Below the pieces are notes generated by a model that was not told the DNA's origin, did no database searches, and worked only from the letters and a program-made list of their open reading frames with translations. A program made the position numbers and the translations under genes. Of a stretch of 64,000 bases of DNA, positions 23,470-63,867 are shown in pieces. How positions within the stretch are numbered: the first letter of the stretch is position 1; each line of letters opens with the position of its first letter. Origin of the DNA: Chitinophagales bacterium (GTDB lineage Bacteria; Bacteroidota; Bacteroidia; Chitinophagales; JADIYW01); contig JAMLHJ010000002.1 of the NCBI GenBank assembly GCA_023957245.1, positions 1 to 64,000 of the forward strand. The letters are read 5' to 3'.

Positions 23470-24348
23470 ATGGAAAACGAAATTATATTATCCCAAAATC
23501 AAATTGAAAATCGAATTTTTACAATTCGTAATAATCAAGTAATGCTTGATCGAGATTTAGCGGAAATCTATCAAGTGGAAACTAAAGTTCTAAACCAAGC
23601 AGTTAAAAGAAATTTAGATAGGTTTCCTGAACAATTTCGTTTTCAACTTACTAATGATGAAAAAAATGAACTGGTCACAATTTGTGACCAGTTCGAATCT
23701 TTAAAGCATTCTTCAACGAATCCATACGCGTTTACTGAACAAGGAGTAGCAATGCTTTCGGCTGTTTTGCGTAGTGAGATAGCAGTAAAAGTAAGCATTC
23801 AAATTATAAATGCTTTTATAGAAATGCGAAAACTTATCACCTCGCACAGCGGACTATTACAACGTATGGAAGGGATGGAGCGTAAGCAAATAGAATCAGA
23901 CCAAAAATTCGAAAAAGTATTTAAAGCACTTGAGAATAAGAGTGCTATTCCCACCCAAGGCGTATTTTTTGATGGACAAATTTTTGATGCTTACGAGCTG
24001 ACTTCCAAAATTATTCGCTCGGCAAAGAAAGGTATTGTATTAATTGATAACTATATCGACGAAAACACGCTGACGCATCTATGCAAGAAAAACAAAGGTG
24101 TGAATGTACTCTTATTGACAAAATCAATTTCTAAAGCATTGGAATTAGACCTCAAAAAAGCCAATGAGCAATACGGCAATTTTGAGATTAAAGCTTTTAC
24201 CAAAAGTCACGACCGTTTTCTGATAATTGACCATTCGGAAGTGTATCATCTGGGTGCTTCGCTAAAAGATTTGGGTAAGAAATGGTTTGCCTTTTCTAAA
24301 ATGGATAAATATTCGGTGGATGGTATTTTGAAGGAGATTAGTTTTTAG
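23470..24348 (+). CDS. ORF6N-domain protein with C-terminal degenerate PLD-like domain
   Basis: Residues 8-95 form an ORF6N (KilA-N-related) putative DNA-binding domain (IENRIFTIRNNQVMLDRDLA, YAFTEQGVAMLSAVLRS), as found in phage and mobile-element proteins. A helical linker (125-155) follows. Residues 160-292 include SHDRFLIID, an H-x-R-x4-D variant of the PLD HKD motif, followed by VYHLGASLKDLGKKWFAFSKM. The combination recurs in Bacteroidota accessory regions; its role is not established and could be regulatory or nucleolytic. A decayed tandem copy follows immediately, with a similar upstream sequence. Confidence 0.85.
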   Translation: MENEIILSQNQIENRIFTIRNNQVMLDRDLAEIYQVETKVLNQAVKRNLDRFPEQFRFQLTNDEKNELVTICDQFESLKHSSTNPYAFTEQGVAMLSAVLRSEIAVKVSIQIINAFIEMRKLITSHSGLLQRMEGMERKQIESDQKFEKVFKALENKSAIPTQGVFFDGQIFDAYELTSKIIRSAKKGIVLIDNYIDENTLTHLCKKNKGVNVLLLTKSISKALELDLKKANEQYGNFEIKAFTKSHDRFLIIDHSEVYHLGASLKDLGKKWFAFSKMDKYSVDGILKEISF

Positions 24349-24386
24349 TAAGAAAATCTAAATATAGACAATATAAAAGAAGCAAA

Positions 24387-24727
24387 ATGAAAGTTGATAT
24401 TTTGTTATTATAAAAAGAGATAGAAAATCGAATTTTTACAATTTGAGGTGTTCAGGTGATGTTCTATAAAGATTTGGCTAAAATGTACCAAGTTGAGACT
24501 TTCGTTTTAAATCAAGCTGTAAAAGGAATGGCGAGCGTTTTCCTGATGATTTTATGTTTCAACTTACCCAATAGTAGTAAGAAAATTTGAAAGTACAAAA
24601 TGTGATGTCAAGTGAATATGGAGGACGCAGAACACTTCCTTTCGTTTATACTGAACAAGGTGTTTCAGGTTTGTCAGCCGTATTAAAAATTGAAACGGCA
24701 ACCAAAATGCAAGGGGTAATTATGTAA
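24387..24727 (+). pseudogene. Decayed tandem copy of the ORF6N gene
   Basis: Translated pieces in shifting frames match the intact gene upstream: IENRIFTI then a stop, MFYKDLAKMYQVETFVLNQAVK, a frameshifted FQLTQ, and TLPFVYTEQGVSGLSAVLK ending at a TAA (24725-24727). At least two frameshifts and one early stop disrupt it, and the C-terminal half is missing. The DNA before its ATG (GATTAGTTTTTAGT...AGACAA) also resembles that before the intact gene, so a gene plus its upstream region was duplicated. Confidence 0.8.
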
Positions 24728-24742
24728 ACTTTTTTAGGGAGA

Positions 24743-24770
24743 GTCAGAAGGTTTTATTCACAGACTGGGT
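24743..24770 (+). repeat. Right-hand end of an attC-like repeat (copy A)
   Basis: GTCAGAAGG...CACAGACTGGGT, followed by TTGGCAG, matches the right end of the 186-bp repeats further on (TGCAGACTGGCG followed by TTGGCAG). Only the right end is recognisable. It marks the left boundary of the cassette-like module carrying the first ADP-ribosylglycohydrolase. Confidence 0.5.
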
Positions 24771-24872
24771 TTGGCAGATTATTATTCTCCAGCAGATTTT
24801 TGGAAAACGTCAGAAAATAAAGAAATAAAAACATTGCCAAACAATTAGAATTATTATTTTTAGTAGCACAGG

Positions 24873-25853
24873 ATGAAAAGAGTAACAACAATAATAGAAA
24901 TAAAATCAGCACTTTTCGGAGTTGCAGTTGGAGATGCAGTAGGCGTCCCTTATGAATTTTCATCTCGACAAGAAATGATTGAAAATCCAGCAACCGATAT
25001 GAAAGGATATGGAACATATCACCTACCACCAGGAACTTGGTCAGATGATAGTTCTTTGACTTTCTGTTTAGCAGAGTCAATTGCTTCAGGTTTTAATCTT
25101 GTTACTACTGCTGAAAATTTTATAAAATGGAGGGATGAAGCTTATTGGACTGCAGATAATTGTGTTTTTGATATAGGTAATACTACAAACAATGCAATTA
25201 GCCAACTAAAATCAATTCTTTCAAAAGAAAATGCAGAAATAGAACTTGAGCAGCTAAAAATAAATGCAGAAGAATATGATAATGGAAACGGTTCTTTAAT
25301 GCGAATTATACCACTTTTGTTTTATATCTACGGCAAAAATATACACGAGCAATTTGACTTAATATGGAAAGTTTCAGCTTTAACCCACAAACACATTAGA
25401 GCTGCAATGAGTTGTCTTATTTATTTGAAATGCGCTGAGTATATTCTGAACGGAATTGAAAAAGAAACTGCCTACTTGAAGACTAAGGAAGATATCCTAA
25501 ACTTTTGGAACGAAATTAACTTTCCCAACTCTGAACGAAAACATTTTGAAAAAATAATACAGAACGATATAAGGGATACAAGTAAAGAAGATTTAAAATC
25601 TGGTGGATATGTTATTGAGGTATTAGAATCATCTTTCTGGTTTTTTCTCGAAGAGGATTCTTATGAAAATACAATATTGTCAATAATAAATTTAGGACAC
25701 GACACTGATACTTCTGCTGCTATCGTGGGAGGCTTAGCTGGATTATATTACGGAATTGACAAAATACCGATTAATTGGATAAAACAAATTACAAGAAAAA
25801 ATGACATTGAAAACTTGGCTGAACGTCTTACCGACAAGCTCACTTGTCATTAA
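24873..25853 (+). CDS. ADP-ribosylglycohydrolase family protein (first of two)
   Basis: The 326-residue all-helical hydrolase has the binuclear Mg site signatures of the DraG/ARH family: GVAVGDAVGVPYEF (13-26), TWSDDSSLTFCLA (about 50-62), YDNGNGSLMRIIP (about 132) and LGHDTDTSAAIVGGLAG (about 277). These enzymes remove ADP-ribose from protein side chains (Arg or Ser) or related substrates. Its substrate is unknown, and no ADP-ribosyltransferase partner is in the window. It lies between attC-like copies A and B, in the same orientation as all the following modules. Confidence 0.92.
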   Translation: MKRVTTIIEIKSALFGVAVGDAVGVPYEFSSRQEMIENPATDMKGYGTYHLPPGTWSDDSSLTFCLAESIASGFNLVTTAENFIKWRDEAYWTADNCVFDIGNTTNNAISQLKSILSKENAEIELEQLKINAEEYDNGNGSLMRIIPLLFYIYGKNIHEQFDLIWKVSALTHKHIRAAMSCLIYLKCAEYILNGIEKETAYLKTKEDILNFWNEINFPNSERKHFEKIIQNDIRDTSKEDLKSGGYVIEVLESSFWFFLEEDSYENTILSIINLGHDTDTSAAIVGGLAGLYYGIDKIPINWIKQITRKNDIENLAERLTDKLTCH

Positions 25854-25968
25854 CATACAAATTGGCAATAGATCAAGTGAAGTACTTCTATTGAACTTTT
25901 GTGAAAGGTTGAACACTGATAATTATCTTTAACATTTGTGCTAAAAGCTTGCTCCATCGCCAATTATG
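25854..25968 (-). repeat. attC-like hairpin, second family, inverted (copy B)
   Basis: Read on the minus strand, this element shares the exact 15-mer CTTTTAGCACAAATG, the flanking GGAGC and the right-arm word GAAGNACTTNAC with the element at 63741-63867. It ends at G before TTAATG. Its termini, ATTGGCAAT and ATCGCCAAT on the plus strand, are imperfect inverted repeats. The stop codon of the upstream glycohydrolase lies inside the terminal box. Confidence 0.55.
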
Positions 25969-26059
25969 ATTTAGGAAGCCTTTTACATGGAGCTTTGAAG
26001 ATTATAACTCCAAACCACATAAAACCATTTTTTTTACTTCAAATACTTCAAAAAAAACT

Positions 26060-26854
26060 ATGATTTCAAATTCAAATGCAATAATTGGTGCTGTTATTGG
26101 TGACGTAATTGGTTCTGTCTTTGAATGGAACAATATAAAATCAACCGACTTTGATTTTTTCAAACCAAAGTGTGATTTTACTGACGATACAGTATTAACA
26201 ATTGCCGTTGCTGACTGCATATTGAACAAGAAAGATTTTGCCAAGACAATTTGGGAATATGGCAGAAAATATCGTGAACGTGGCTACGGTGGTAGTTTTA
26301 GAAATTGGTTAAAAGAAGATAATTTAAAACCTTACGGAAGTTTTGGTAATGGTTCGGCAATGAGAGTAAGTGCTGTGGGTTTGGCATTTAATGACATTGA
26401 AACCGTTATGGAAGTGGCTAAAGAATCAGCAGAAGTAACACATAACCACCCTGAAGGAGTTAAAGGTGCACAAGCAACTGCGACTGCAATATTTCTTGCA
26501 AGACGAGGTAAATCAAAGCAAGAGATAAAAGATTACATAACTCAGACTTTCGACTATAATCTTGACTTTACACTTGACGAAATACGACCAAATTATAAAT
26601 TTGACGTAACTTGTCAGGGTTCAGTTCCACAAGCAATTGTAGCTTTTTTTGAAAGTTCAGACTTTGAAAATGCTATTAGACTTGCAATTTCAATAGGTGG
26701 CGACAGCGACACAATTGCATGTATTACTGGAGGAATTGCTTCGGCATTTTACCGACATATTCCAAATGAAATTATTGACTTTGTAGTTGACAAACTCCCG
26801 AGTGAATACATTGAAATAATGAACAAATTTGACCAACAATATATCAGAAATTAA
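26060..26854 (+). CDS. ADP-ribosylglycohydrolase family protein (second of two)
   Basis: The 264-residue compact member carries all expected motifs: IIGAVIGDVIGSVFEW (8-23), FTDDTVLTIAVADCIL (about 42), GSFGNGSAMRVSAVGLAF (about 93) and IGGDSDTIACITGGIASAFY (about 213), with the Asp pairs that bind two metal ions. It is only distantly similar to the first copy and shorter, so the two were probably acquired separately rather than by duplication. It is followed by attC-like copy C. The substrate is unknown. Confidence 0.92.
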   Translation: MISNSNAIIGAVIGDVIGSVFEWNNIKSTDFDFFKPKCDFTDDTVLTIAVADCILNKKDFAKTIWEYGRKYRERGYGGSFRNWLKEDNLKPYGSFGNGSAMRVSAVGLAFNDIETVMEVAKESAEVTHNHPEGVKGAQATATAIFLARRGKSKQEIKDYITQTFDYNLDFTLDEIRPNYKFDVTCQGSVPQAIVAFFESSDFENAIRLAISIGGDSDTIACITGGIASAFYRHIPNEIIDFVVDKLPSEYIEIMNKFDQQYIRN

Positions 26855-26869
26855 GAATGGCAAACCCAC

Positions 26870-27071
26870 AACATCATTACGAAAAGTAAAAAGCCATGAA
26901 TACAGCAATCCAATACTGAAACTGTGAGGCATTTTGATATTTGTAGCATTTCGAAAGACTCAGAAGCAATACCAATTATTGAAGGGATTATGCATCTTGC
27001 CTTTATGTTCTTAAGTGCAAAATATTAACTATATTTGAAAGATTCAGTTAGTGTTTTTTCAAAGATTGAGA
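26870..27071 (+). repeat. attC-like intergenic repeat, copy C
   Basis: This matches copies D1, D2, E and F over its whole length, for example ATTACGAAAAGTAAAA (shared with F), AATACAGCAA, CCAATACTGA, GTGAGGC, CCAATTATT and GCAAAATATTAA. Similarity ends near 27071, before TTTTGTGG, a poorer junction than the other copies have. Confidence 0.75.
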
Positions 27072-27143
27072 TTTTGTGGTCAGACAATGAAGAGTACACA
27101 AACGGACAGACAACGAATAGAATTAACATTGAAGCAATAAATA

Positions 27144-30100
27144 TTGACAGGAGAAAGGGAAAATACCGACTACTCTATTGCGTTCATAGATACAGAGATT
27201 GAACCTAAGAACGGGAAGGTTCTTGATATAGGAAGTGTCAAGGATAACGGTGCTTTTTTCCATAAAACTTCGATAACTGACTTCATGCAGTTTCTTAAAG
27301 GAACTCAATTCATCTGCGGACATAATATTTTCAATCACGACATCAAATACATTGGGAAAACTCTCAATGATGCAGGAATCAATTCAGCTAACATTATTGA
27401 TACATTGTTCCTTTCTCCTTTGCTTTTTCCGACAAAGCCCTATCATTCTTTACTTAAAGACGACAAACTTCAATCCGAAGATACAAACAATCCGTTGAAC
27501 GATTCAATCAAAGCGAAAGATTTATTGTATGACGAAATTGCTACTTTTAAACAAACAGACGAAGCGCTCAAACAAATTTTTTATTTGCTATTAAACGACA
27601 AAAAAGAGTTCCACTCTTTTTTCTGTTACATAGCATATAGCAGTTCCTGCACAGACATTGAAAGACTTATTCGTGAAAAATTTAAAAATGAAATTTGTGA
27701 AAATGTTGATTTAGCAAATATTATTTCAGAAAAACCAATAGAACTTGCTTACTGTTTATCATTGATAAATTCTTTCATTCAACACAAGAAAATACATTCC
27801 ATAACACCTCCTTGGGTTTTGAAAACTTACCCCGAAGTGGAACAGATAATGTTTCGTTTAAGAAACAAACCTTGCATAAGTGGTTGCGAATATTGCAACA
27901 ACATTTTAGATGCACACAAAGGACTTAAAAGATTTTTTGATTTTGATTCTTACAGAAGTTACGGTGGTGAATCATTGCAAGAAAAAGCAGTTAAAGCTGC
28001 GATTGACAATAAATCAATACTTGCCGTCTTCCCAACAGGTGGCGGAAAGTCAATCACATTTCAAGTTCCTGCATTGATTTGCGGAGAAACTTCAAAAGGA
28101 TTAACAATAGTGATTTCGCCTTTACAATCACTAATGAAAGACCAAGTTGACAACCTAGAAAAAATTGGGATTACCGATGCCGTTACAATAAACGGGTTAC
28201 TTGACCCAATTGAAAGAGCAAAATCTTTTGAAAGAGTTGAAGACGGTTCAGCATCTATGCTCTACATTTCACCGGAATCGCTACGCTCAAAGACAATTGA
28301 ACGTTTAGTGTTAGGAAGAAAAATTGCCCGTTTTGTAATTGATGAAGCTCACTGTTTTTCTTCGTGGGGACAAGATTTTAGAGTTGATTATTTATATATC
28401 GGAGATTTTATCAAATCAATTCAAGAAAAGAAAAATCTTGAAGATGGCATTCCTATTTCCTGTTTCACAGCAACGGCAAAACAAAAGGTAATTGAAGACA
28501 TACGAGATTATTTTAAAGAGAAACTCTCGTTAAACCTTGAATTGTTCACGTCAAAAGCATCACGGACAAACTTGCAATACAAAGTCTTTGAAAAAGGAGA
28601 CGAAGAAGAAAAATATCAACAAGTTCGAGATTTGATTGAAGATAAAAATTGTCCGACTATCATTTATGTTTCTCGAACACGAAAAGCCTACACTCTTGCA
28701 GAACGCTTGACCGAAGACGGTTTCACTGCAAAACCGTATCACGGCAAAATGGACGCAAAAGAAAAAACAGCAAATCAAAATGCTTTCATAGCAGGCGAAG
28801 TGCCAATTATGGTAGCAACTTCTGCTTTCGGAATGGGCGTTGATAAAAAAGATGTAGGAATGGTCATTCACTATGAGGTTTCCGATTCGCTTGAAAACTA
28901 CATTCAGGAAGCAGGGCGAGCAGGACGTGATGAAAATATTACAGCTGATTGTTTCGTTTTATTTAACGAAGAAGATTTAAGTAAGCATTTCATTCTATTA
29001 AATCAAACAAAACTTTCTATCAAAGAAATTCAACAAGTTTGGAAAGCGATTAAAGAAATTACAAGATTTCGTTCAACTGTTTCAAATTCGGCTTTGGAGA
29101 TTGCACGAAAAGCAGGCTGGGATGATAATGTTATTGAAATTGAAACACGGGTAACAACAGCCATTGCAGCGTTGGAAGATGCAGGATATTTGAAACGTGG
29201 ACAAAATATGCCACGCGTTTTTGCAAACAGTATTCTTTCAAAAAATGTAAAAGAAGCCATTGATAAAATCAATGCTTCGGAAAGATTTATTGGAAATCAA
29301 AAAGAAAAAGGCGTCAGAATTATAAAGAAACTTTTCTCTAGTAAAAGTAGAAAACAAACCACTGATGAAAGTGCAGAATCAAGAATTGATTACATCAGCG
29401 ACCATTTAGGAATTGTAAAAGAAGAAGTGATAAATATTGTCAATCTGTTACGTGAAGAAAAAATTTTAGCCGATGCAAAAGATTTGACAGCATTTATCAA
29501 AAAAGGAGAAAACAAAAATCGTTCGTTCAACATAGTTGACACATTCAGTAAAATTGAGACCTTTTTGCTTCCATTTTTTGAAGAGCAAGAAAAAATATTT
29601 CACATAAAAGAACTTAACGAACAAGCCGAAGAAAAAGGACTTAACGATATCAGCACCAATAAGATTAAAACTATTCTCAATTTTTGGGCAATCAAAAACT
29701 GGATTAAACGACAAAGTTTAGAATCAAAAAACCATGTAACTGTTCTTGCACTGTTCCCGAAAGAATTATTGAAATATAAATTAGAGAAACGACATGCTTT
29801 AGCAAAATTCATTGTTGAATTTCTTTATGAAAAAAGTAATATGAACGTTTCTGAAGAAGATTCAGCAAAAGAAGAAGTGTTGGTTGAGTTTTCGGTTCAA
29901 GAACTAAAATCTGCTTACGAGGGAAGCTCAAGTTTATTTAAAGTAAACATCAATCTTGATGATATTGAAGACACGCTTTTTTACTTATCAAGAATTGAAG
30001 CAATAAAAATTGAAGGTGGTTTCCTTGTTGTGTATAATCGTTTGACCATTGAACGAACAGAGCAAAACAATAAGAAACAATACACGAAAGACGATTATCA

Positions 30101-31988
30101 AAAACTAAATCAGTTTTACGAAAACAAAGTTCAGCAAATTCATATTGTTGGCGAATACGCAAAAAAAATGATAACTGACTACAAAAATGCTTTACAGTTT
30201 GTAGAAGATTATTTTCAATTAAATTATTCTTCGTTTCTCAATAAATATTTTAAAGGCAGTCGTCAAAATGAAATTAAAAGAAATATAACACCTGCCAAAT
30301 TCAAGCAACTTTTCGGAGACCTTTCTCCAACACAATTAAAAATTATAAATGACAACGAAACAAAGCATATTGTTGTTGCTGCTGGCCCAGGAAGCGGGAA
30401 AACAAGGGTTTTAGTTCACAAACTTGCTTCTTTGCTTTTAATGGAAGATGTGAAGCACGAACAGTTGCTTATGATTACTTTTTCAAGAGCAGCAGCAACC
30501 GAATTTAAAAAGCGTTTACTTAAACTTATTGGAAATGCAGCAAACTACATTGAAATAAAAACTTTTCATTCATACTGTTTTGATTTGTTGGGCAAAGTGG
30601 GCAGTTTGGAAAAATCAGACGAAATTATAAAAAAGACGATTCAGAAAATACAAAACAATGACGTTGAAGCAAGCCGAATAACAAAAACTGTTTTAGTAAT
30701 TGATGAAGCACAAGATATGGACAAAGATGAGTATGGGTTGATAAGTGCTTTGATGAAACAAAACGAAGAAATGAGAGTTATTGCGGTTGGTGATGACGAC
30801 CAAAATATTTATGAATTTCGTGGAGCAAGTTCTAAACACCTTGAACAATTCATTCATGAAAACGAAGCAATCAAACACGAATTAGTTGAGAATTACAGAA
30901 GTAAAAGCAACCTTGTTGATTTTGCAAATCAATTTGTAAAACGAATTTCTCACAGACTAAAACAAACTCCAATCATTGCAAATCAAAGCGATAACGGGAA
31001 AATTAAAATTGTTCGTTATCAAAGCGGAAACCTCATTAACCCGCTTGTTCAAGACATTCTTACAACAGGACTTTCGGGAACAACTTGCATATTGACAAAA
31101 ACAAATGAAGAAGCACTTCAAATTACAGGGTTAATTTTGAAAAATAACATTCAGGCAAAATTGATTCAGTCAAATGATGGTTTCAGTTTATACAATCTTA
31201 ATGAGGTTCGCTATTTTTTAAGCCATTTGAACTTGGCTGATGATATTTATACAATCAACGATGATGTTTGGTTGAACGCAAAGCGTAAAGTGGTAAACAA
31301 ATATCGTCATAGTAATAAATTGGAGATTTTAGGGAACATCATCAGAGAATTTGAAGCATCAAATCCCAAAAAGAAATACAAATCTGACTTAGAAGTTTTC
31401 ATTCGTGAATCTAAACTTGAAGATTTCTTCAACGAAAATGGTGAGACTATTTTCGTTTCAACAATTCACAAAGCAAAAGGAAAAGAATTTGACAATGTTT
31501 TTATAATGCTTGAGAACTTCAATCCAACGACAGACGAAGCAAAACGGCTTTTATATGTTGCAATGACAAGAGCAAAAACAAATTTGACTATCCATCTCAA
31601 CTCAAACTTTCTTGATAACCTCACAGTAGACAATATAGAACGAATTGGAAACAAAGAAATTCATTTGCAACCAAAAGAATTAGCGATGCACTTGTCATTA
31701 AAAGATGTTTGGCTTGACTATTTCATATCCCGACAAATTTTCATTTCAGAACTTAAAAGTGGAGACATGCTTACAGTAAACGGAGATGAATGTTTAGATA
31801 CCCATGGGAAATCCGTATTAAAATTTTCAAAGCATTTTGTTGATCAAATTGAAAGTATGAAAGCAAAAAATTATGAATTGAAAAGTGCAAAAGTGAATTT
31901 TATTGTTTATTGGGAAAAAGAAGAAACAGAGCAAGAAGTGAAAATTGTTTTACCTGAACTACGCTTTGAAAGAACAATTGAAACATAG
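27144..31988 (+). CDS. DEDDh exonuclease - RecQ helicase - UvrD-like helicase fusion
   Basis: One 1614-residue protein holds three nucleic-acid modules. Residues 10-150 are a DnaQ-like exonuclease (motif I D16-T-E18; GHNIFNHDIKYI with D66; NNPLNDSIKAKDLL). Residues 270-640 are a RecQ core (FPTGGGKS with K302, DEAH 400-403, AGRAGRDE); winged-helix-like regions follow to about 1000. Residues 1060-1560 are a UvrD/Rep-type SF1 helicase (GPGSGKT with K1086, DEAQ near 1187, GDDDQNIYEFRG, TIHKAKG, YVAMTRAK). The TTG start is favoured because motif I precedes the first internal Met (residue 48). It probably processes DNA ends or replication forks, and a phage-defence role is possible. It is flanked by attC-like copies C and D1. 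Confidence 0.93.
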   Translation: MTGERENTDYSIAFIDTEIEPKNGKVLDIGSVKDNGAFFHKTSITDFMQFLKGTQFICGHNIFNHDIKYIGKTLNDAGINSANIIDTLFLSPLLFPTKPYHSLLKDDKLQSEDTNNPLNDSIKAKDLLYDEIATFKQTDEALKQIFYLLLNDKKEFHSFFCYIAYSSSCTDIERLIREKFKNEICENVDLANIISEKPIELAYCLSLINSFIQHKKIHSITPPWVLKTYPEVEQIMFRLRNKPCISGCEYCNNILDAHKGLKRFFDFDSYRSYGGESLQEKAVKAAIDNKSILAVFPTGGGKSITFQVPALICGETSKGLTIVISPLQSLMKDQVDNLEKIGITDAVTINGLLDPIERAKSFERVEDGSASMLYISPESLRSKTIERLVLGRKIARFVIDEAHCFSSWGQDFRVDYLYIGDFIKSIQEKKNLEDGIPISCFTATAKQKVIEDIRDYFKEKLSLNLELFTSKASRTNLQYKVFEKGDEEEKYQQVRDLIEDKNCPTIIYVSRTRKAYTLAERLTEDGFTAKPYHGKMDAKEKTANQNAFIAGEVPIMVATSAFGMGVDKKDVGMVIHYEVSDSLENYIQEAGRAGRDENITADCFVLFNEEDLSKHFILLNQTKLSIKEIQQVWKAIKEITRFRSTVSNSALEIARKAGWDDNVIEIETRVTTAIAALEDAGYLKRGQNMPRVFANSILSKNVKEAIDKINASERFIGNQKEKGVRIIKKLFSSKSRKQTTDESAESRIDYISDHLGIVKEEVINIVNLLREEKILADAKDLTAFIKKGENKNRSFNIVDTFSKIETFLLPFFEEQEKIFHIKELNEQAEEKGLNDISTNKIKTILNFWAIKNWIKRQSLESKNHVTVLALFPKELLKYKLEKRHALAKFIVEFLYEKSNMNVSEEDSAKEEVLVEFSVQELKSAYEGSSSLFKVNINLDDIEDTLFYLSRIEAIKIEGGFLVVYNRLTIERTEQNNKKQYTKDDYQKLNQFYENKVQQIHIVGEYAKKMITDYKNALQFVEDYFQLNYSSFLNKYFKGSRQNEIKRNITPAKFKQLFGDLSPTQLKIINDNETKHIVVAAGPGSGKTRVLVHKLASLLLMEDVKHEQLLMITFSRAAATEFKKRLLKLIGNAANYIEIKTFHSYCFDLLGKVGSLEKSDEIIKKTIQKIQNNDVEASRITKTVLVIDEAQDMDKDEYGLISALMKQNEEMRVIAVGDDDQNIYEFRGASSKHLEQFIHENEAIKHELVENYRSKSNLVDFANQFVKRISHRLKQTPIIANQSDNGKIKIVRYQSGNLINPLVQDILTTGLSGTTCILTKTNEEALQITGLILKNNIQAKLIQSNDGFSLYNLNEVRYFLSHLNLADDIYTINDDVWLNAKRKVVNKYRHSNKLEILGNIIREFEASNPKKKYKSDLEVFIRESKLEDFFNENGETIFVSTIHKAKGKEFDNVFIMLENFNPTTDEAKRLLYVAMTRAKTNLTIHLNSNFLDNLTVDNIERIGNKEIHLQPKELAMHLSLKDVWLDYFISRQIFISELKSGDMLTVNGDECLDTHGKSVLKFSKHFVDQIESMKAKNYELKSAKVNFIVYWEKEETEQEVKIVLPELRFERTIET

Positions 31989-31996
31989 AAATGAAA

Positions 31997-32183
31997 ATCA
32001 AGCCTAAAATAAAAAGCCTAAAATACAGCAAACCAATACTGATGATGTGAAGATTTTTGCTATTTATCACAAGCAGTTAATTCCAATTATTATAGGCATT
32101 ATTCATCTTGCTTTTTTGTCCTTAAATGCAAAATATTAATTATGTGTGAAAGAGTTTGCGAATGATTTTTTTGCAGACTGACT
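31997..32183 (+). repeat. attC-like intergenic repeat, copy D1 (187 bp)
   Basis: This copy is nearly identical to D2, with one inserted base and a few substitutions. It begins 9 bp after the helicase stop and ends in TTTGCAGACTGACT, immediately before TTAGGC, which matches the integron R-box pattern (G/T)TTRRRY. Confidence 0.85.
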
Positions 32184-32267
32184 TTAGGCAACATTCTACA
32201 AAAATCCAAAATAAAATTTAAGATTTCCGAAAAAGTACTTATCTTTTGCGTTAGTAACGTTAAAAGT

Positions 32268-32550
32268 GTGATCGTAAATTTTGGAAATAAGGAAACTGAG
32301 AAAATCTGGAACGGAATTGTTTCTAAAAAAACTTCCGAGAGAAATTCAAGAAGTTGCAAGGCGAAAATTGAGAATGATAAATAATTCGATTGATGAAACT
32401 GACTTAAGAATCCCGCCAGCAAATCGTCTTGAAAAATTAAAAGGAGATTTAAAAGAGTTCTATAGCATAAGAATTAACAATCAATGGAGAATTGTTTTCA
32501 AATGGGAAAATGGCAATGCTTTTGAGGTAGAAATTATGGATTATCATTAA
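32268..32550 (+). pseudogene. higB: HigB-type toxin (RelE superfamily), frameshifted at an A7 run
   Basis: Two frames together give a full-length HigB. From the GTG at 32268, VIVNFGNKETEKIWNGIVSKK matches the family N-terminus. After the seven A residues at 32325-32331 the frame must shift to continue LPREIQEVARRKLRMINN...NRLEKLKG...YSIRINNQWRIVFKW...VEIMDYH. A run of six A would restore one frame. The toxin is therefore either inactivated by slippage, made only by ribosomal or transcriptional slippage on the A run, or misassembled. Reading the downstream frame alone from the TTG at 32281 gives a wrong N-terminus. The antitoxin HigA follows by 10 bp. HigB toxins cleave mRNA on ribosomes. Confidence 0.82.
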
Positions 32551-32560
32551 AATCGAAATT

Positions 32561-32872
32561 ATGGGAAAATTAAGAAACATATCGCCTGGAGAAGTTTTAT
32601 TAGAAGAATTTTTAATTCCTCTTGAAATTTCACAATATAGATTGTCAAAAGATTTAGACATTCCACAAACAAGAGTTTCGGAAATCATTAAAGGTAACAG
32701 AAGGATTTCCGCAGATACAGCTGTAAGACTTAGTGCTTGTTTTGGCAATTCCGCAAAATTTTGGCTTGGACTTCAAGATGATTATGATATTGAAAATGAA
32801 ATGTCGGAAAAATCTAATGAGGTAAAAAGAATTAAAAGAATCAGAAAGGATAAAGAGAAAACCCTCTACTAA
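32561..32872 (+). CDS. higA: HigA-type XRE-family antitoxin
   Basis: The 103-residue protein has a helix-turn-helix of the HigA type: ISPGEVLLEEFLIPLEISQYRLSKDL followed by PQTRVSEIIKGNRRISADTAVRL (about 8-60) and the characteristic FWLGLQDDYDIE. It would neutralise HigB and repress the operon. The C-terminus is basic (KRIKRIRKDKEK). The toxin-first order is the norm for higBA. It ends just before attC-like copy D2, whose left end starts 2 bp after the stop. Confidence 0.93.
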   Translation: MGKLRNISPGEVLLEEFLIPLEISQYRLSKDLDIPQTRVSEIIKGNRRISADTAVRLSACFGNSAKFWLGLQDDYDIENEMSEKSNEVKRIKRIRKDKEKTLY

Positions 32873-32873
32873 C

Positions 32874-33059
32874 ATCAAGCCTAAAATAAAAAGCCAAAAA
32901 TACAGCAAACCAATACTGATGATGTGAAGCTTTTGCTATTTATCACAAGCAGTTAATTCCAATTATTATAGGCATTATTCATCTTGCTTTTTTGTCCTTA
33001 AATGCAAAATATTAATTATGTGTGAAAGAGTTTGCGAATGATTTTTTTGCAGACTGGCG
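32874..33059 (+). repeat. attC-like intergenic repeat, copy D2 (186 bp)
   Basis: This is the reference copy. Its left end has GCCTAA and AAGCCAAAAATACAGCAAA; its right end is TTTGCAGACTGGCG followed by TTGGCAG. GCCAA at the left pairs with TTGGC at the right junction, and GCAAA further in pairs with TTTGC, matching the R''-L''...L'-R' order of attC sites. The inner part does not form one long stem. Confidence 0.85.
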
Positions 33060-33134
33060 TTGGCAGAAAGGATTGCAAAATGCTGCACAACAATAATTTA
33101 GACTGTGAAAGGAGGGCTTTTTCTACTAGACAAA

Positions 33135-33165
33135 TTGATTTTCAATTCGAAAAACTATATCTTTG
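33135..33165 (+). promoter_or_regulatory. Complete -33/-7 promoter of the PemK module
   Basis: TTG at 33135-33137 and TATCTTTG at 33158-33165 are separated by 20 bp, the classic Bacteroidota spacing. The ATG follows only 4 bp after the -7 box, so the transcript would start at or next to the start codon. Confidence 0.65.
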
Positions 33166-33169
33166 CAAC

Positions 33170-33601
33170 ATGGTTTACAACCTGACATATTCGACAAGTA
33201 TTTTGGAATCTCTTGGAGTTCTATCATGTTTCAATATTGCTGAAACTATTTGGGAGAAATATGAGAAATTCGCTATTCCTAAAATCAAGGAATCGACTAT
33301 TAAGATAAGAGGATCTTTGTATTACCTCAAAGACTTAACACCAAGTCAAGCGGCTAAGGAGGTAAATTCAATTAGTTCATTTATTCTAGTTTTGACTAAA
33401 CTCAGAACTGTAATAGAACCTATTGACGACAGAGAGTTTAAAGAGTTCAAAATTGCCGCTTTGGACTTTTTCGACGCGGTTGACTTTCTATGCTCTAATC
33501 TTCAAGACATAGCAGACATTCATAGCTCTTACGAAATTTCTAAGCCAGTTTTAGCAACTGACTGGGACAGTAACGAAGACGAACATTGGAATAATTACTA
33601 A
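33170..33601 (+). CDS. Unrecognised 143-residue protein, putative antitoxin partner of PemK
   Basis: The start is placed at the ATG at 33170 because the longer frame from 33032 would run through repeat copy D2 and the promoter. The product is helical and acidic toward its end, with PSQAAKEVNSISSFILVLTKL and a C-terminal WDSNEDEHWNNY. I recognise no named family. It ends 5 bp before the PemK/MazF-like gene, which suggests translational coupling, and an acidic tail is usual for antitoxins that block PemK toxins. The antitoxin role is inferred from position only. It lacks an obvious ribbon-helix-helix or AbrB DNA-binding motif. Confidence 0.65.
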   Translation: MVYNLTYSTSILESLGVLSCFNIAETIWEKYEKFAIPKIKESTIKIRGSLYYLKDLTPSQAAKEVNSISSFILVLTKLRTVIEPIDDREFKEFKIAALDFFDAVDFLCSNLQDIADIHSSYEISKPVLATDWDSNEDEHWNNY

Positions 33602-33606
33602 GAGAT

Positions 33607-33942
33607 ATGAAATATAACCAAGGTGACATCATTCTACTTCCATATCCATATACTGACTTATCAAACACTAAGCAACGACCAGCTGTTATTATCTCGAAAG
33701 ACTTCGTAAACAAACAGAATTACATTGTAGCAAAAATTACATCAGTGATAAGAGGAGATAAGTTTTCATTCCCAATTGCAGCAACGGACATTGACAGAGA
33801 ACTTAAATATGAGAGTGAAGTTCGCACAAATGAAGTGTTTACAGTGAGCCCAACTATCATAATCAAGAAGTTTGCATCCTTCAAGAAAGAGCCACTAATA
33901 CGATTGACCGAGAATATCAAGAACAACATTTCTGTAGAGTGA
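33607..33942 (+). CDS. PemK/MazF-family mRNA interferase toxin
   Basis: The 111-residue protein begins with the family motif YNQGDIILLPYPYTDLSNTKQRPAVII, in which the G-D-I-v-l-v-p-f-P-f and kxRPavv blocks form the SH3-like core. It continues with NYIVAKITSV and a Thr/Ser-containing third strand (VRTNEVFTVSPTII). MazF/PemK proteins are sequence-specific endoribonucleases. It is the second gene of a two-gene module with the 143-residue protein, between attC-like copies D2 and E. Confidence 0.9.
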   Translation: MKYNQGDIILLPYPYTDLSNTKQRPAVIISKDFVNKQNYIVAKITSVIRGDKFSFPIAATDIDRELKYESEVRTNEVFTVSPTIIIKKFASFKKEPLIRLTENIKNNISVE

Positions 33943-33979
33943 CGGACAGTAGCCCATTCACTAACATTATGACAAATAG

Positions 33980-34151
33980 AAAAATGCCATAAATACAGCA
34001 AGCCAATACTGATGATGTGAAGCTTTTGCTATTTATCACAAGTAGCCTATACCAATTATTATAGGCATTATTCATCTTGCTTTTGTGTCCTTAAATGCAA
34101 AATATTAATTATGTGTGAAAGAGTTTGCGAATGATTTTTTGCAGACTGACG
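33980..34151 (+). repeat. attC-like intergenic repeat, copy E
   Basis: From AAAATGCCATAAATACAGCA to TTTGCAGACTGACG this copy is nearly identical to D1 and D2, with local differences (GTAGCCTATACC for GCAGTTAATTCC). Similarity stops exactly before TTGGAAG. Its left box, ATGCCA, is close to the complement of the TTGGCAG that begins the same module at 33060. Confidence 0.85.
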
Positions 34152-34232
34152 TTGGAAGAATATTTTTTGAGCAAAGCAAGAGCCTATCGAAGAAAATAAT
34201 TAACTTTGAATTGGAGTTAAAATGAATTAGAA

Positions 34233-34463
34233 ATGGATATTCAAACAAGAAAAATAGAATTTATTCAATCTTTTTTAAAACTACAAAGTGAAGAGGTAAT
34301 TTCTAAACTTGAAAAAATTTTAAAGAAAAACCAAGTAGATGAAACCTCGGAAGATTTAAAACCATTTTCAATTGAAGAACTGAATAACAGAATTGCACAA
34401 TCTGAAAAGGATTTTGACAATGGAAAATTCAAAACAACTTCCGAACTTTTAGCAAAATACTAA
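34233..34463 (+). CDS. Small antitoxin of a ParE/RelE-type module
   Basis: The 76-residue acidic, helical protein (IEFIQSFLKLQSEEVISKLEKILKK; PFSIEELNNRIAQSEKDFDNGKF) resembles the short antitoxins that precede RelE/ParE toxins in Bacteroidota. In these the C-terminal segment wraps the toxin. It has no visible DNA-binding fold beyond the N-terminal helices. The stop is 4 bp before the toxin start. Confidence 0.8.
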   Translation: MDIQTRKIEFIQSFLKLQSEEVISKLEKILKKNQVDETSEDLKPFSIEELNNRIAQSEKDFDNGKFKTTSELLAKY

Positions 34464-34467
34464 ACTA

Positions 34468-34788
34468 TTGGACTACAAAATTATTTGGTCTCAGTTTTCA
34501 GAAATTGAAATTGACAATATCTATGATTATTACAAAAACAAGGCAAACTCAAAGCTTGCATCAAAAATTGTCAAAAACATTCTTGTTGCTCCAAATATCC
34601 TAATAAAAAACACAAAAATTGGAGTTCCAGAGCTAAATTTAAAAGATAGGGAAATAGAATATCGTTATATAGTTTCGACAAACTACAAAATTATCTATTC
34701 AATAAATGATGCAGATAAGACTATTCGTATAGCAGATGTTTTTGACACAAGACAAAATCCTGCAAGAATAGAAAAACGTATAAAATAA
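34468..34788 (+). CDS. RelE/ParE-superfamily toxin
   Basis: The 106-residue protein starts at TTG (DYKIIWSQFSEIEIDNIYDYYK) directly behind the antitoxin. It has the superfamily pattern of an N-terminal helical hairpin and a C-terminal beta sheet (EIEYRYIVSTNYKIIYSINDADKTIRIADVFDTRQNP). The DVFDTRQNP end is the typical catalytic or interaction strand of this toxin group. It may inhibit gyrase (ParE type) or cleave mRNA (RelE type); the sequence does not decide. It is followed by attC-like copy F. Confidence 0.88.
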   Translation: MDYKIIWSQFSEIEIDNIYDYYKNKANSKLASKIVKNILVAPNILIKNTKIGVPELNLKDREIEYRYIVSTNYKIIYSINDADKTIRIADVFDTRQNPARIEKRIK

Positions 34789-34798
34789 AAAGTCTTCA

Positions 34799-34991
34799 CA
34801 TAACTTCATTACGAAAAGTAAAAGTGATAAATACTGGAGTTCAATACTATGACAGTGAGGCTTTTGGCTATTCGTATTATTTCGCCAGATTCAGTAGCAA
34901 TTCAATTATTGAGGGCATTATTTATTGTTTTAAAACAAGAAATATTAATTATATTTGGAAGGCTTGGTGAAGATGTTTTCGCTGACTGAGG
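34799..34991 (+). repeat. attC-like intergenic repeat, copy F
   Basis: This is a more divergent copy, closest to C (both share ATTACGAAAAGTAAAA at the left and AATATTAANTATATTTG at the right). It ends CGCTGACTGAGG before TTAGTTGC, at the same junction position as copies D1, D2 and E. Confidence 0.75.
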
Positions 34992-35033
34992 TTAGTTGCA
35001 AAATTAGTTGCCGACACATAAAGAAACATTTGT

Positions 35034-35090
35034 ATGAAATGGGAAACCAAGCTATACGATATTATAGAAAAATTAAATAAAATCAAATAA
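35034..35090 (+). CDS. 18-codon ORF overlapping the next start codon
   Basis: The frame MKWETKLYDIIEKLNKIK ends in TAA, whose last A is the first base of the next ATG (TAATG). Such an overlap suggests translational coupling, so this could be a leader peptide or the residue of a longer partner protein. There is no further evidence that it is translated. Confidence 0.25.
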   Translation: MKWETKLYDIIEKLNKIK

Positions 35091-35338
35091 TGCAAAAGAA
35101 ATGTCCAACGTGTGGTAAAAAATCTCACAATTTTGAATTGGAAGAGGCGTTAAATTGTGTTCCTCCCAAGAATGTATTGAAATTTGGCGAGTATGTAATT
35201 GACAAAAAATACAGAAATGCCCTTTATAAAAAACATCCATATTATAATGCCGAAGAAATTGTAGGCTCTTTTTTAGGGCATAATCCATATTTTCCTAGCC
35301 AAGAAATATGGGAAAACTCTAAAGATGAAATGAATTAA
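35090..35338 (+). CDS. Small Cys-motif hypothetical protein
   Basis: The 82-residue protein begins MQKKCPTCGKKSHNF, a single CPxCG knuckle, with one further Cys at about residue 23. A half zinc ribbon is possible, needing another ligand or a partner. The rest (FGEYVIDKKYRNALYKKHPYYNAEEIVGSFLGHNPYFP) is aromatic-rich and I do not recognise it. It is the last module of the cassette-like array, between copy F and the terminal copy G. Confidence 0.6.
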   Translation: MQKKCPTCGKKSHNFELEEALNCVPPKNVLKFGEYVIDKKYRNALYKKHPYYNAEEIVGSFLGHNPYFPSQEIWENSKDEMN

Positions 35339-35439
35339 ATACATATCTTCGCAAATATGAATTACACAAAAAATATTTGAAAAATGTTTTTTTACTACTA
35401 ACAAAATATCAAAAAATGACCTACTCTGCTACTATACTT

Positions 35440-35530
35440 TATAACAAATAAAAAAACTATCAACACAGCAACCCTATACTGATGCTTTAAGACTTATTAC
35501 TATTTCTTGTTCTTCGTCTAGTTCAGCACC
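35440..35530 (+). repeat. Degenerate terminal attC-like repeat, copy G
   Basis: CACAGCAACCCTATACTGATG, GCTTTAAGACTTATTACTATTTCTTG and CAGCACCAATATTGTA align with the left and middle parts of copies D-F. The right end is missing, and ordinary chromosomal sequence follows. It marks the right end of the array. Confidence 0.55.
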
Positions 35531-35550
35531 AATATTGTAAAATCCCCCTT

Positions 35551-63740: not shown

Positions 63741-63867
63741 CCAGTTTACGACTTTGCGAGGGAGCGGACTTTTAGCACAAATGCTCAAACGAATAACCGA
63801 ACTTCAAATTTAGCACAAATGTTGATATGAAGCACTTTACGCGCTTTCTTGCAAAACCGAGTTATGG
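63741..63867 (+). repeat. attC-like hairpin, second family (copy H)
   Basis: The two ends are imperfect inverted repeats aligned without gaps. The left arm is CCAGTTTACGACTTTGCGAG and continues GGAGCG; the reverse complement of the right arm is CCATAACTCGGTTTTGCAAG and continues AAAGCG. The right end, TTGCAAAACCGAG followed by TTATGG, has the same box spacing (8 bp from TTGCA to TTR) as the 186-bp repeats. The 15-mer CTTTTAGCACAAATG is shared with copy B at 25854-25968. Confidence 0.65.

Follow-up and report, generated by a model that had tools for sequence, protein, structure and literature searches.

The window, that is, the whole 64,000-nucleotide stretch analysed here (contig JAMLHJ010000002.1 of the Chitinophagales assembly GCA_023957245.1), holds between 24.7 and 35.5 kb a row of gene modules, all of them on the plus strand and with repeats between them, namely five full copies (190-203 bp), one left-half copy and one fragment. 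Among the open reading frames (ORFs) of the window, no integrase adjoins this array. The row is probably a cassette array of integron type that has decayed and has no integrase of its own; the predicted integrase, a tyrosine recombinase without the insertion that characterises integron integrases (IntI), has its gene on a different contig of this genome, here called C3. In many other Bacteroidota such patch-less recombinases, i.e. those lacking the IntI insertion, adjoin cassettes with 10-nt paired ends and attC-like hairpins.

The repeats and modules of the row

The row opens with fragment A (24753..24771), a short piece of the repeat's right end (CAGACTG; ATTCACAGACTG up to 24767) which was found by pattern matching with two mismatches and missed by the repeat profile at E<=0.01. 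It stands before two ADP-ribosylglycohydrolase module genes (24873..25853 and 26060..26854, both PF03747), followed by the full repeat C (26870..27072), which was recovered by repeat comparison, profile and end pattern and which is laid out as an attC-like left half (~26870-26970), a right half apparently derived from an insertion sequence (IS; ~26971-27068), and the boundary. The next module gene (27144..31988), assigned by its domain matches, encodes a 1614-aa fusion of a RecQ-like DEAD-box and a UvrD helicase, different parts of which score to the DpdF and GajB defence models. The full repeats D1 (31995..32184) and D2 (32871..33061), both known from repeat comparison and profile and the latter also from the genome search, enclose the genes of a HigB-like toxin and its HTH_3 partner (32281..32872; PF05015, PF01381). 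A 189-aa ORF and a PemK/MazF-like toxin (33032..33942; ORF calls, PF02452 for the toxin) come next, the ORF having no Pfam match, an uncertain start codon and an overlap with D2. Repeats E (33963..34153) and F (34802..34993), again full and found by comparison and profile, flank a 76-aa ORF and a ParE-like toxin (34233..34788; PF05016), while an 82-aa ORF without Pfam match (35090..35338; ORF list) precedes repeat G (35437..35533; profile, E 3.4e-8), which closes the row at its 3' end and consists of the left half alone.

A sequence-only reading of this DNA had claimed seven repeat copies between one-way modules: the repeats are real and do separate such modules, and five copies are full, whereas A turned out to be a short end and G a left half without right boundary. 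The module contents listed there (toxin-antitoxin pairs, ADP-ribosylglycohydrolases, a helicase fusion, a small orphan protein) agree with the ORFs and Pfam matches, and the right boundary it described is borne out by GATTGAGAT, GACTGACTT, GACTGGCGT, GACTGACGT and GACTGAGGT, each followed across the boundary by T. RNAalifold on 12 copies of the repeat returned a weak structure with almost no covariation, and hence no single stem. Copies D1, D2 and E are mutually 82-94% identical (over 160 nt), and D2 as a query retrieved D1, E and C in the window together with more copies elsewhere in the genome. Since the profile model was built from 12 copies of this genome, C to F among them, only G is an independent profile find. 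An Rfam scan of 20-40 kb gave a single sub-threshold chance match. Just before the array, an intact ORF6N protein (23470-24348, plus strand) matches the PADLOC candidate PDC-S05, and a degenerate second gene copy occupies 24375-24750.

A patch-less recombinase with neighbouring cassettes and attC-like sites

The source genome (3.09 Mb, 23 contigs, listed as 100% complete) encodes three Phage_integrase proteins, namely XerD (334.4 bits vs a cut-off of 329.6), one XerC-like protein and the 364-aa recombinase on C3. The latter attains no model cut-off (XerA-type, 209.6 of 220 bits; XerC, 170.3 vs 335.15; XerD, 161.6 vs 329.6) and lacks the IntI-specific insertion: about 36 residues of IntI4 (2a3v) are unmatched, flanked by query residues 284-289. 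The catalytic R, K, H-x-x-R, H and Y are all present, H302, R305, H328 and Y337 as well as K238 and K241 being invariant in alignment A3, and R213 nearly so. By the IntI definition the C3-type system is not a member of the integrons; judged on its anatomy, it would nonetheless work like one.

That anatomy is as follows (a slash marks the cut point). Adjoining the recombinase gene on C3 is a conserved attI-like site, ..GCGTATATTTGAGAG/TTA. The gene reads away from the site ..CTGCGTATATTTGAGAG/TTAGTGGC, which is followed by a cassette, its end ..GCCACTAAC, a long palindrome and the end of the contig, by which the palindromic attC-like site is cut. Nine bases at one end of the cassette are complementary to nine at the other (GTTAGTGGC...GCCACTAAC); inside lie a pentapeptide ORF and a Cass2/GyrI-like ORF, the first cassette encoding Cass2, the 'Integron-associated effector binding protein'. 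The genome has four copies of the 18-nt attI core (C1, C3, C7, C19), all on one strand of their contigs, and two of the reversed pattern. On C1 the attI-like site, with a 72-aa recombinase remnant beside it, is followed by a three-site array whose cassette ends read GTTAGCGGT..ACCGCTAAC and GTTATGTGT..ACACATAAC; the second of these cassettes encodes a further ADP-ribosylglycohydrolase, which shares 24% identity with that of the window. Both C1 and C3 have cassettes in one orientation that are complementary at their ends, together with palindromic attC sites. Of seven clade-A genomes examined, five (the present genome, G004, G011, G012, G015) have a conserved attI-like candidate beside the recombinase gene, and G019 yielded none; the contigs of G007 and G012 stop no more than 170 bp 3' of the gene.

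The family is widespread. A relative was found at E<=1e-40 in 14/20 genomes, the present one included, and the family at E<=1e-60 in 164 of the 296 genomes drawn evenly from the class, where canonical IntI exceeds its cut-off in a single genome (G151). In a scan of named genomes, from which 80 loci were kept out of a larger number, the K-to-H spacing that the IntI insertion lengthens is 62-73 in 70 of the 71 measurable loci (nine more were not measurable), and 106 only in L187 (Allochromatium), where the insertion is visible in the protein. In a tree of 84 rows the Bacteroidota recombinases form one group (support 93/96, just under the tool's star), and the two canonical IntI rows lie outside it, among other patch-less rows and with modest support. 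A protein search scored 7799 of 8000 candidates at E<=1e-30, with no integron name among the 120 matches listed, most of them unnamed. The supposition that the array usually lies upstream of the recombinase was wrong for most relatives, in which it is 3' of the gene.

These counts bear on the idea that the row is a canonical IntI integron, or an attC cluster without integrase, whose IntI gene lies on unassembled sequence. The genome G151 shows that canonical IntI does exist in the class, and contigs break inside arrays, so that such a gene could be missing here; however, the genome is listed as complete, canonical IntI is rare in the class, and the genome's own recombinase already adjoins an attI-like site and a cassette, which makes this explanation very improbable.

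Cassette ends near the recombinase were searched as GTT[AG] within 500 nt of the gene with an exact 10-nt reverse complement 150-9000 nt further on. Such pairs occur in 25/80 loci, vs 4/80 and 6/80 with reversed and complemented letters, and in 7/70, 3/64 and 2/63 when the origin of the search was moved; pairing over 11 nt is seen in only 3/80 loci, which indicates that it stops at 10. In a separate set of 20 loci from the 296-genome draw, chosen as lying inside long contigs, 11/20 have paired ends vs 2 and 6 with altered letters and 3 and 2 with the origin moved; of the eleven, L293 and L309 seem by eye to be coincidences. Short attC-like sites with complementary cassette ends are seen at L066 13770-14720 (G009) and L068 9380-10602 (G017), and in G017 one cassette start is present in two copies, the pattern expected of a duplicated cassette.

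A covariance model of the attC sites was built from 13 aligned sequences of 79-125 nt, taken from 13 genomes, with a stem of 3, 8 and 3 pairs. In the 20 separately drawn loci it gave 32 matches at E<=0.1, in 16 loci (15/20 at E<=0.01), all on the strand of the recombinase and 3' of it, with seven sites in a row in L304. Among the named-genome loci at E<=0.01, it found 51 sites in 21 of the 43 Bacteroidota loci (L128 being counted by its place in the tree), of which 11 had supplied sequences to the model and 10 had not, and one of the 51, that in L113, is on the opposite side of its gene; there were no matches at the same threshold in the 37 non-Bacteroidota loci or at the genome's own XerC- and XerD-type regions. 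In 356 kb of stretches of the present genome, seven matches reached E<=1.3e-7, namely three on C1 and one each on C3, C12 (288.4 kb), C22 and the window; the last (63744..63863, minus strand; 46.6 bits, E 1.3e-7) is a lone site outside the array, beside the end of an ORF. When attC arms were compared by eye, an A faces a C before the innermost 5-6 pairs in 10/11 sites, and a mismatch falls at the fifth pair in 8/11, G004 and L140 being near copies. A simple arm-matching score, tried as an attC test, discriminates only in part: 7 of 16 sites lie above every shuffle and 9 do not, while the L120 site was not located. Outside the reach of the attC model, a patch-less recombinase of a Spirochaetota metagenome-assembled genome (L157) stands next to a palindrome and a cassette whose ends are complementary over 10 nt.

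Patch-less recombinases might also be taken for XerD-like or phage-type enzymes that stand near palindromic repeats by chance. Their top relatives are indeed named XerD or tyrosine recombinase, and the XerA, XerC and XerD scores of the C3 protein come near its integron-integrase score, all being below cut-off. Against this, all 32 attC-model matches share one strand and side, complementary ends occur only near the recombinase, and the same genome has separate XerD-type and XerC-type genes; chance neighbourhood is accordingly improbable.

Nature and age of the window spacers

The window repeat is also found on C12 (300.6-321 kb, to the contig end) and C5 (0-4.8 kb), with complete or partial copies on C4, C6, C9, C17, C19, C20 and C22, several of these arrays ending at contig ends. 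The profile shows it to be bipartite, with pieces that hold only positions 1 to ~100 or only ~100 to 203; left-only pieces close several arrays on their 3' side, and right-only pieces stand before modules, mostly in G001, a genome of the same genus. The left part, a hairpin that follows ..AAC, folds well in copies from C5, C22 and G001 (z -3.7 to -4.8). The right part ends in TTTTTTCACAGACTG plus four bases plus T. In G001, three attC-model sites run directly into CAGGCTGT[GA]AAAAA, then some 300 nt, then the right part and the next module, i.e. an element of ~300 nt with 15-nt terminal repeats inserted exactly at the attC cut point. The 4-mers outside its two ends are, in the three loci, ACGT/ACGT, CCGT/CCGC and CTGT/GCGT. 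On the other strand the right part reads MPIIIGIDREQINF.. and ..DNEVRFIDVFVYKLDLKQLG.., likely the beginning of a transposase of IS1182 type; a full-length parent IS is absent from the PF05598 matches of the present genome, G001, G002 and G013, which are transposase-like fragments only. A search for the element end that tolerated two mismatches gave 39 matches, among copies that are not independent of one another; NCGTT comes next in 17 of them and NNNTT in 27. Both in G001 and in G002, repeat halves share arrays with attC sites found by the model.

From these data I infer that each window spacer joins a decayed attC-like site, as its left half, to the terminal part of an IS-derived element whose insertion point is the attC cut. 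The rule GACTG-NN-(G or T) before TT, which the sequence-only reading had taken for the attC cut, would then be at least partly the element end (CAGACTG) with a 4-base target copy (NCGT) behind it, at an attC cut point. A second attI site had been considered for the right half and was dropped, given that its outer part ends in a terminal repeat plus a 4-base copy and, on the other strand, begins a transposase-like ORF. Both the right half and the attI-like site carry the word TAnnTTTG, which I take to be the Bacteroidota -7 promoter element, and may therefore drive the next module. The G001 array region that holds the right half also contains a transposase-like gene (L237 7778-8884), presumably of IS91 type, and in G002 (L247, after 4532) the left half is followed by a direct repeat (TTTCAATTCCAATATGGTACGATTA repeated) resembling an array of clustered regularly interspaced short palindromic repeats (CRISPR).

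Whether modules bounded by the window repeat follow cassette rules was scored in 18 such cassettes of the present genome and G001. Complementary ends, at 6 or 7 of 7 variable positions, were found in 3/18, a count reached by 301 of 100,000 permutations, and mismatched pairs score 6 in 4/306.

Several results weigh against the integron-type interpretation, both of the recombinase system and of the row. In the search for an IntI-type recombinase in the genome none attained the integron-integrase cut-off (TIGR02249), the C3 protein scoring 178.5 vs 265 bits; pairing over 9 nt is noisy in controls (17/20 vs 7 to 12 of 20); the attC-like site of C1 folds only modestly (z -1.48); and the attC model has no match in 4/20 of the separately drawn loci and in 22/43 of the Bacteroidota loci of named genomes, some of which end at a contig edge beside the gene. 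As to the row itself, the attC covariance model (built here, not that of IntegronFinder) has no match at 24-36 kb; the proposal that window modules keep complementary ends was rejected (0/5 pairs); shuffled sequences fold no worse than copies E and C (z -0.27 and +1.24); the summed end score over the 18 pairs is weak, being reached by 947/20,000 permutations; four starts had been dropped before the 18-pair count, because another start intervened; and pieces of the repeat also occur outside arrays. With none of its five pairs among the three complementary ones, the window array looks old and inactive.

Part of these observations would also suit a dispersed remnant of a transposable element, resembling a miniature inverted-repeat element, around which modules were joined by homologous recombination and island growth, cassette recombination never having operated here. 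The dispersed pieces, the non-complementary window pairs and the silence of the attC model at 24-36 kb speak for it, as do the terminal repeat and the transposase-like ORF start reading away in the right half, and the near identity of D1, D2 and E, as unequal crossing-over would leave. It does not account as well for modules that start with TTR, or nearly so, at the boundary and in one orientation, for the three repeat-bounded cassettes elsewhere whose ends are complementary, for the element placed at the end of attC-model sites in G001, or for left halves lying in arrays with such sites in G002. This remnant explanation is considered unlikely.

The interval between sprA and the M19 gene measures 12.3 kb here and 6.9 kb in G001, where SprA is 94% identical to its counterpart and all other genes of the interval differ, without any blastn match between the two; in G002, sprA and the M19 gene are on separate contigs. 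This shows turnover in the interval, not its mechanism. The matches break off within the last part of sprA and where the M19 gene ends, rather than at mapped TTR junctions, where modules had been expected to be gained or lost, and the G001 interval, tried as a second array, has no attC-model match. The integron interpretation of the sequence-only reading is partly supported: two of the three outcomes that it had itself named as adverse hold for the window, and 24-36 kb fails by attC model, complementary ends and fold, but the genome does carry integron-type platforms, and what its other parts and the relatives show strengthens the wider reading.

Under the preferred, integron-type explanation, a patch-less recombinase would insert cassettes at attI and, as IntI does, excise and shuffle them at the G/TT of folded attC sites, so that cassettes might circulate; the window array would have been built by such a system and would later have lost its working sites. 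More broadly, it is quite likely that Bacteroidota possess a widespread integron lineage of their own, characterised by a recombinase without insertion, 10-nt cassette ends, attC hairpins with a fixed A.C mismatch, a promoter-bearing attI and an attC-homing IS1182-like element, and overlooked because surveys select on the insertion.

Comparison with known systems

The system resembles the sedentary IntI integrons in having a tyrosine recombinase by an attI-like site, one-way cassettes, the G/TT cut rule and palindromic attC sites, here of 79-125 nt; for IntI integrons, PMC2727003 gives attC sites of 57-142 nt with heptanucleotide R boxes. It differs from them in that its recombinases have no IntI insertion and often read toward the array, in that its cassette ends pair over 10 nt vs the heptanucleotide R boxes (PMC2727003), and in that its attC arms carry an A.C mismatch near the inner stem.

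IntI is recognised by its additional domain (PMC9668308, PMC2426708), and the insertion is described as essential for function, though not fully conserved in an integron-like subgroup (PMC8138268). No account of patch-less integron integrases was found in the open-licence literature of PubMed Central (PMC), subscription papers and preprints being outside that scope. As for the phylum, PMC9024848 describes Bacteroidetes integrons as formerly comprising only In0 and then one complete integron, that of Salinibacter ruber. Like the present system, the latter belongs to Bacteroidetes; it is reported as a complete integron (PMC9024848) and was found by a tool seeking canonical integrases. If the present interpretation is true, both the rarity of integrons in Bacteroidota and the essentiality of the IntI insertion need revision, a large unread pool of cassettes opens, and an origin of cassette capture from Xer-type recombinases becomes testable.

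Clusters of attC sites without an integrase are known as CALIN (PMC9024848, PMC7923331). The window array is like them in lacking a neighbouring integrase and unlike them in its spacers, which are composite and unrecognised by the attC model.

Mobile elements that settle in attC sites are represented by the IS1111-attC elements and the group IIC introns. The element described here resembles them in its choice of attC, and is marked by its length of ~300 nt, its 15-nt terminal repeats, its likely IS1182-like affiliation and its position exactly at the cut point.

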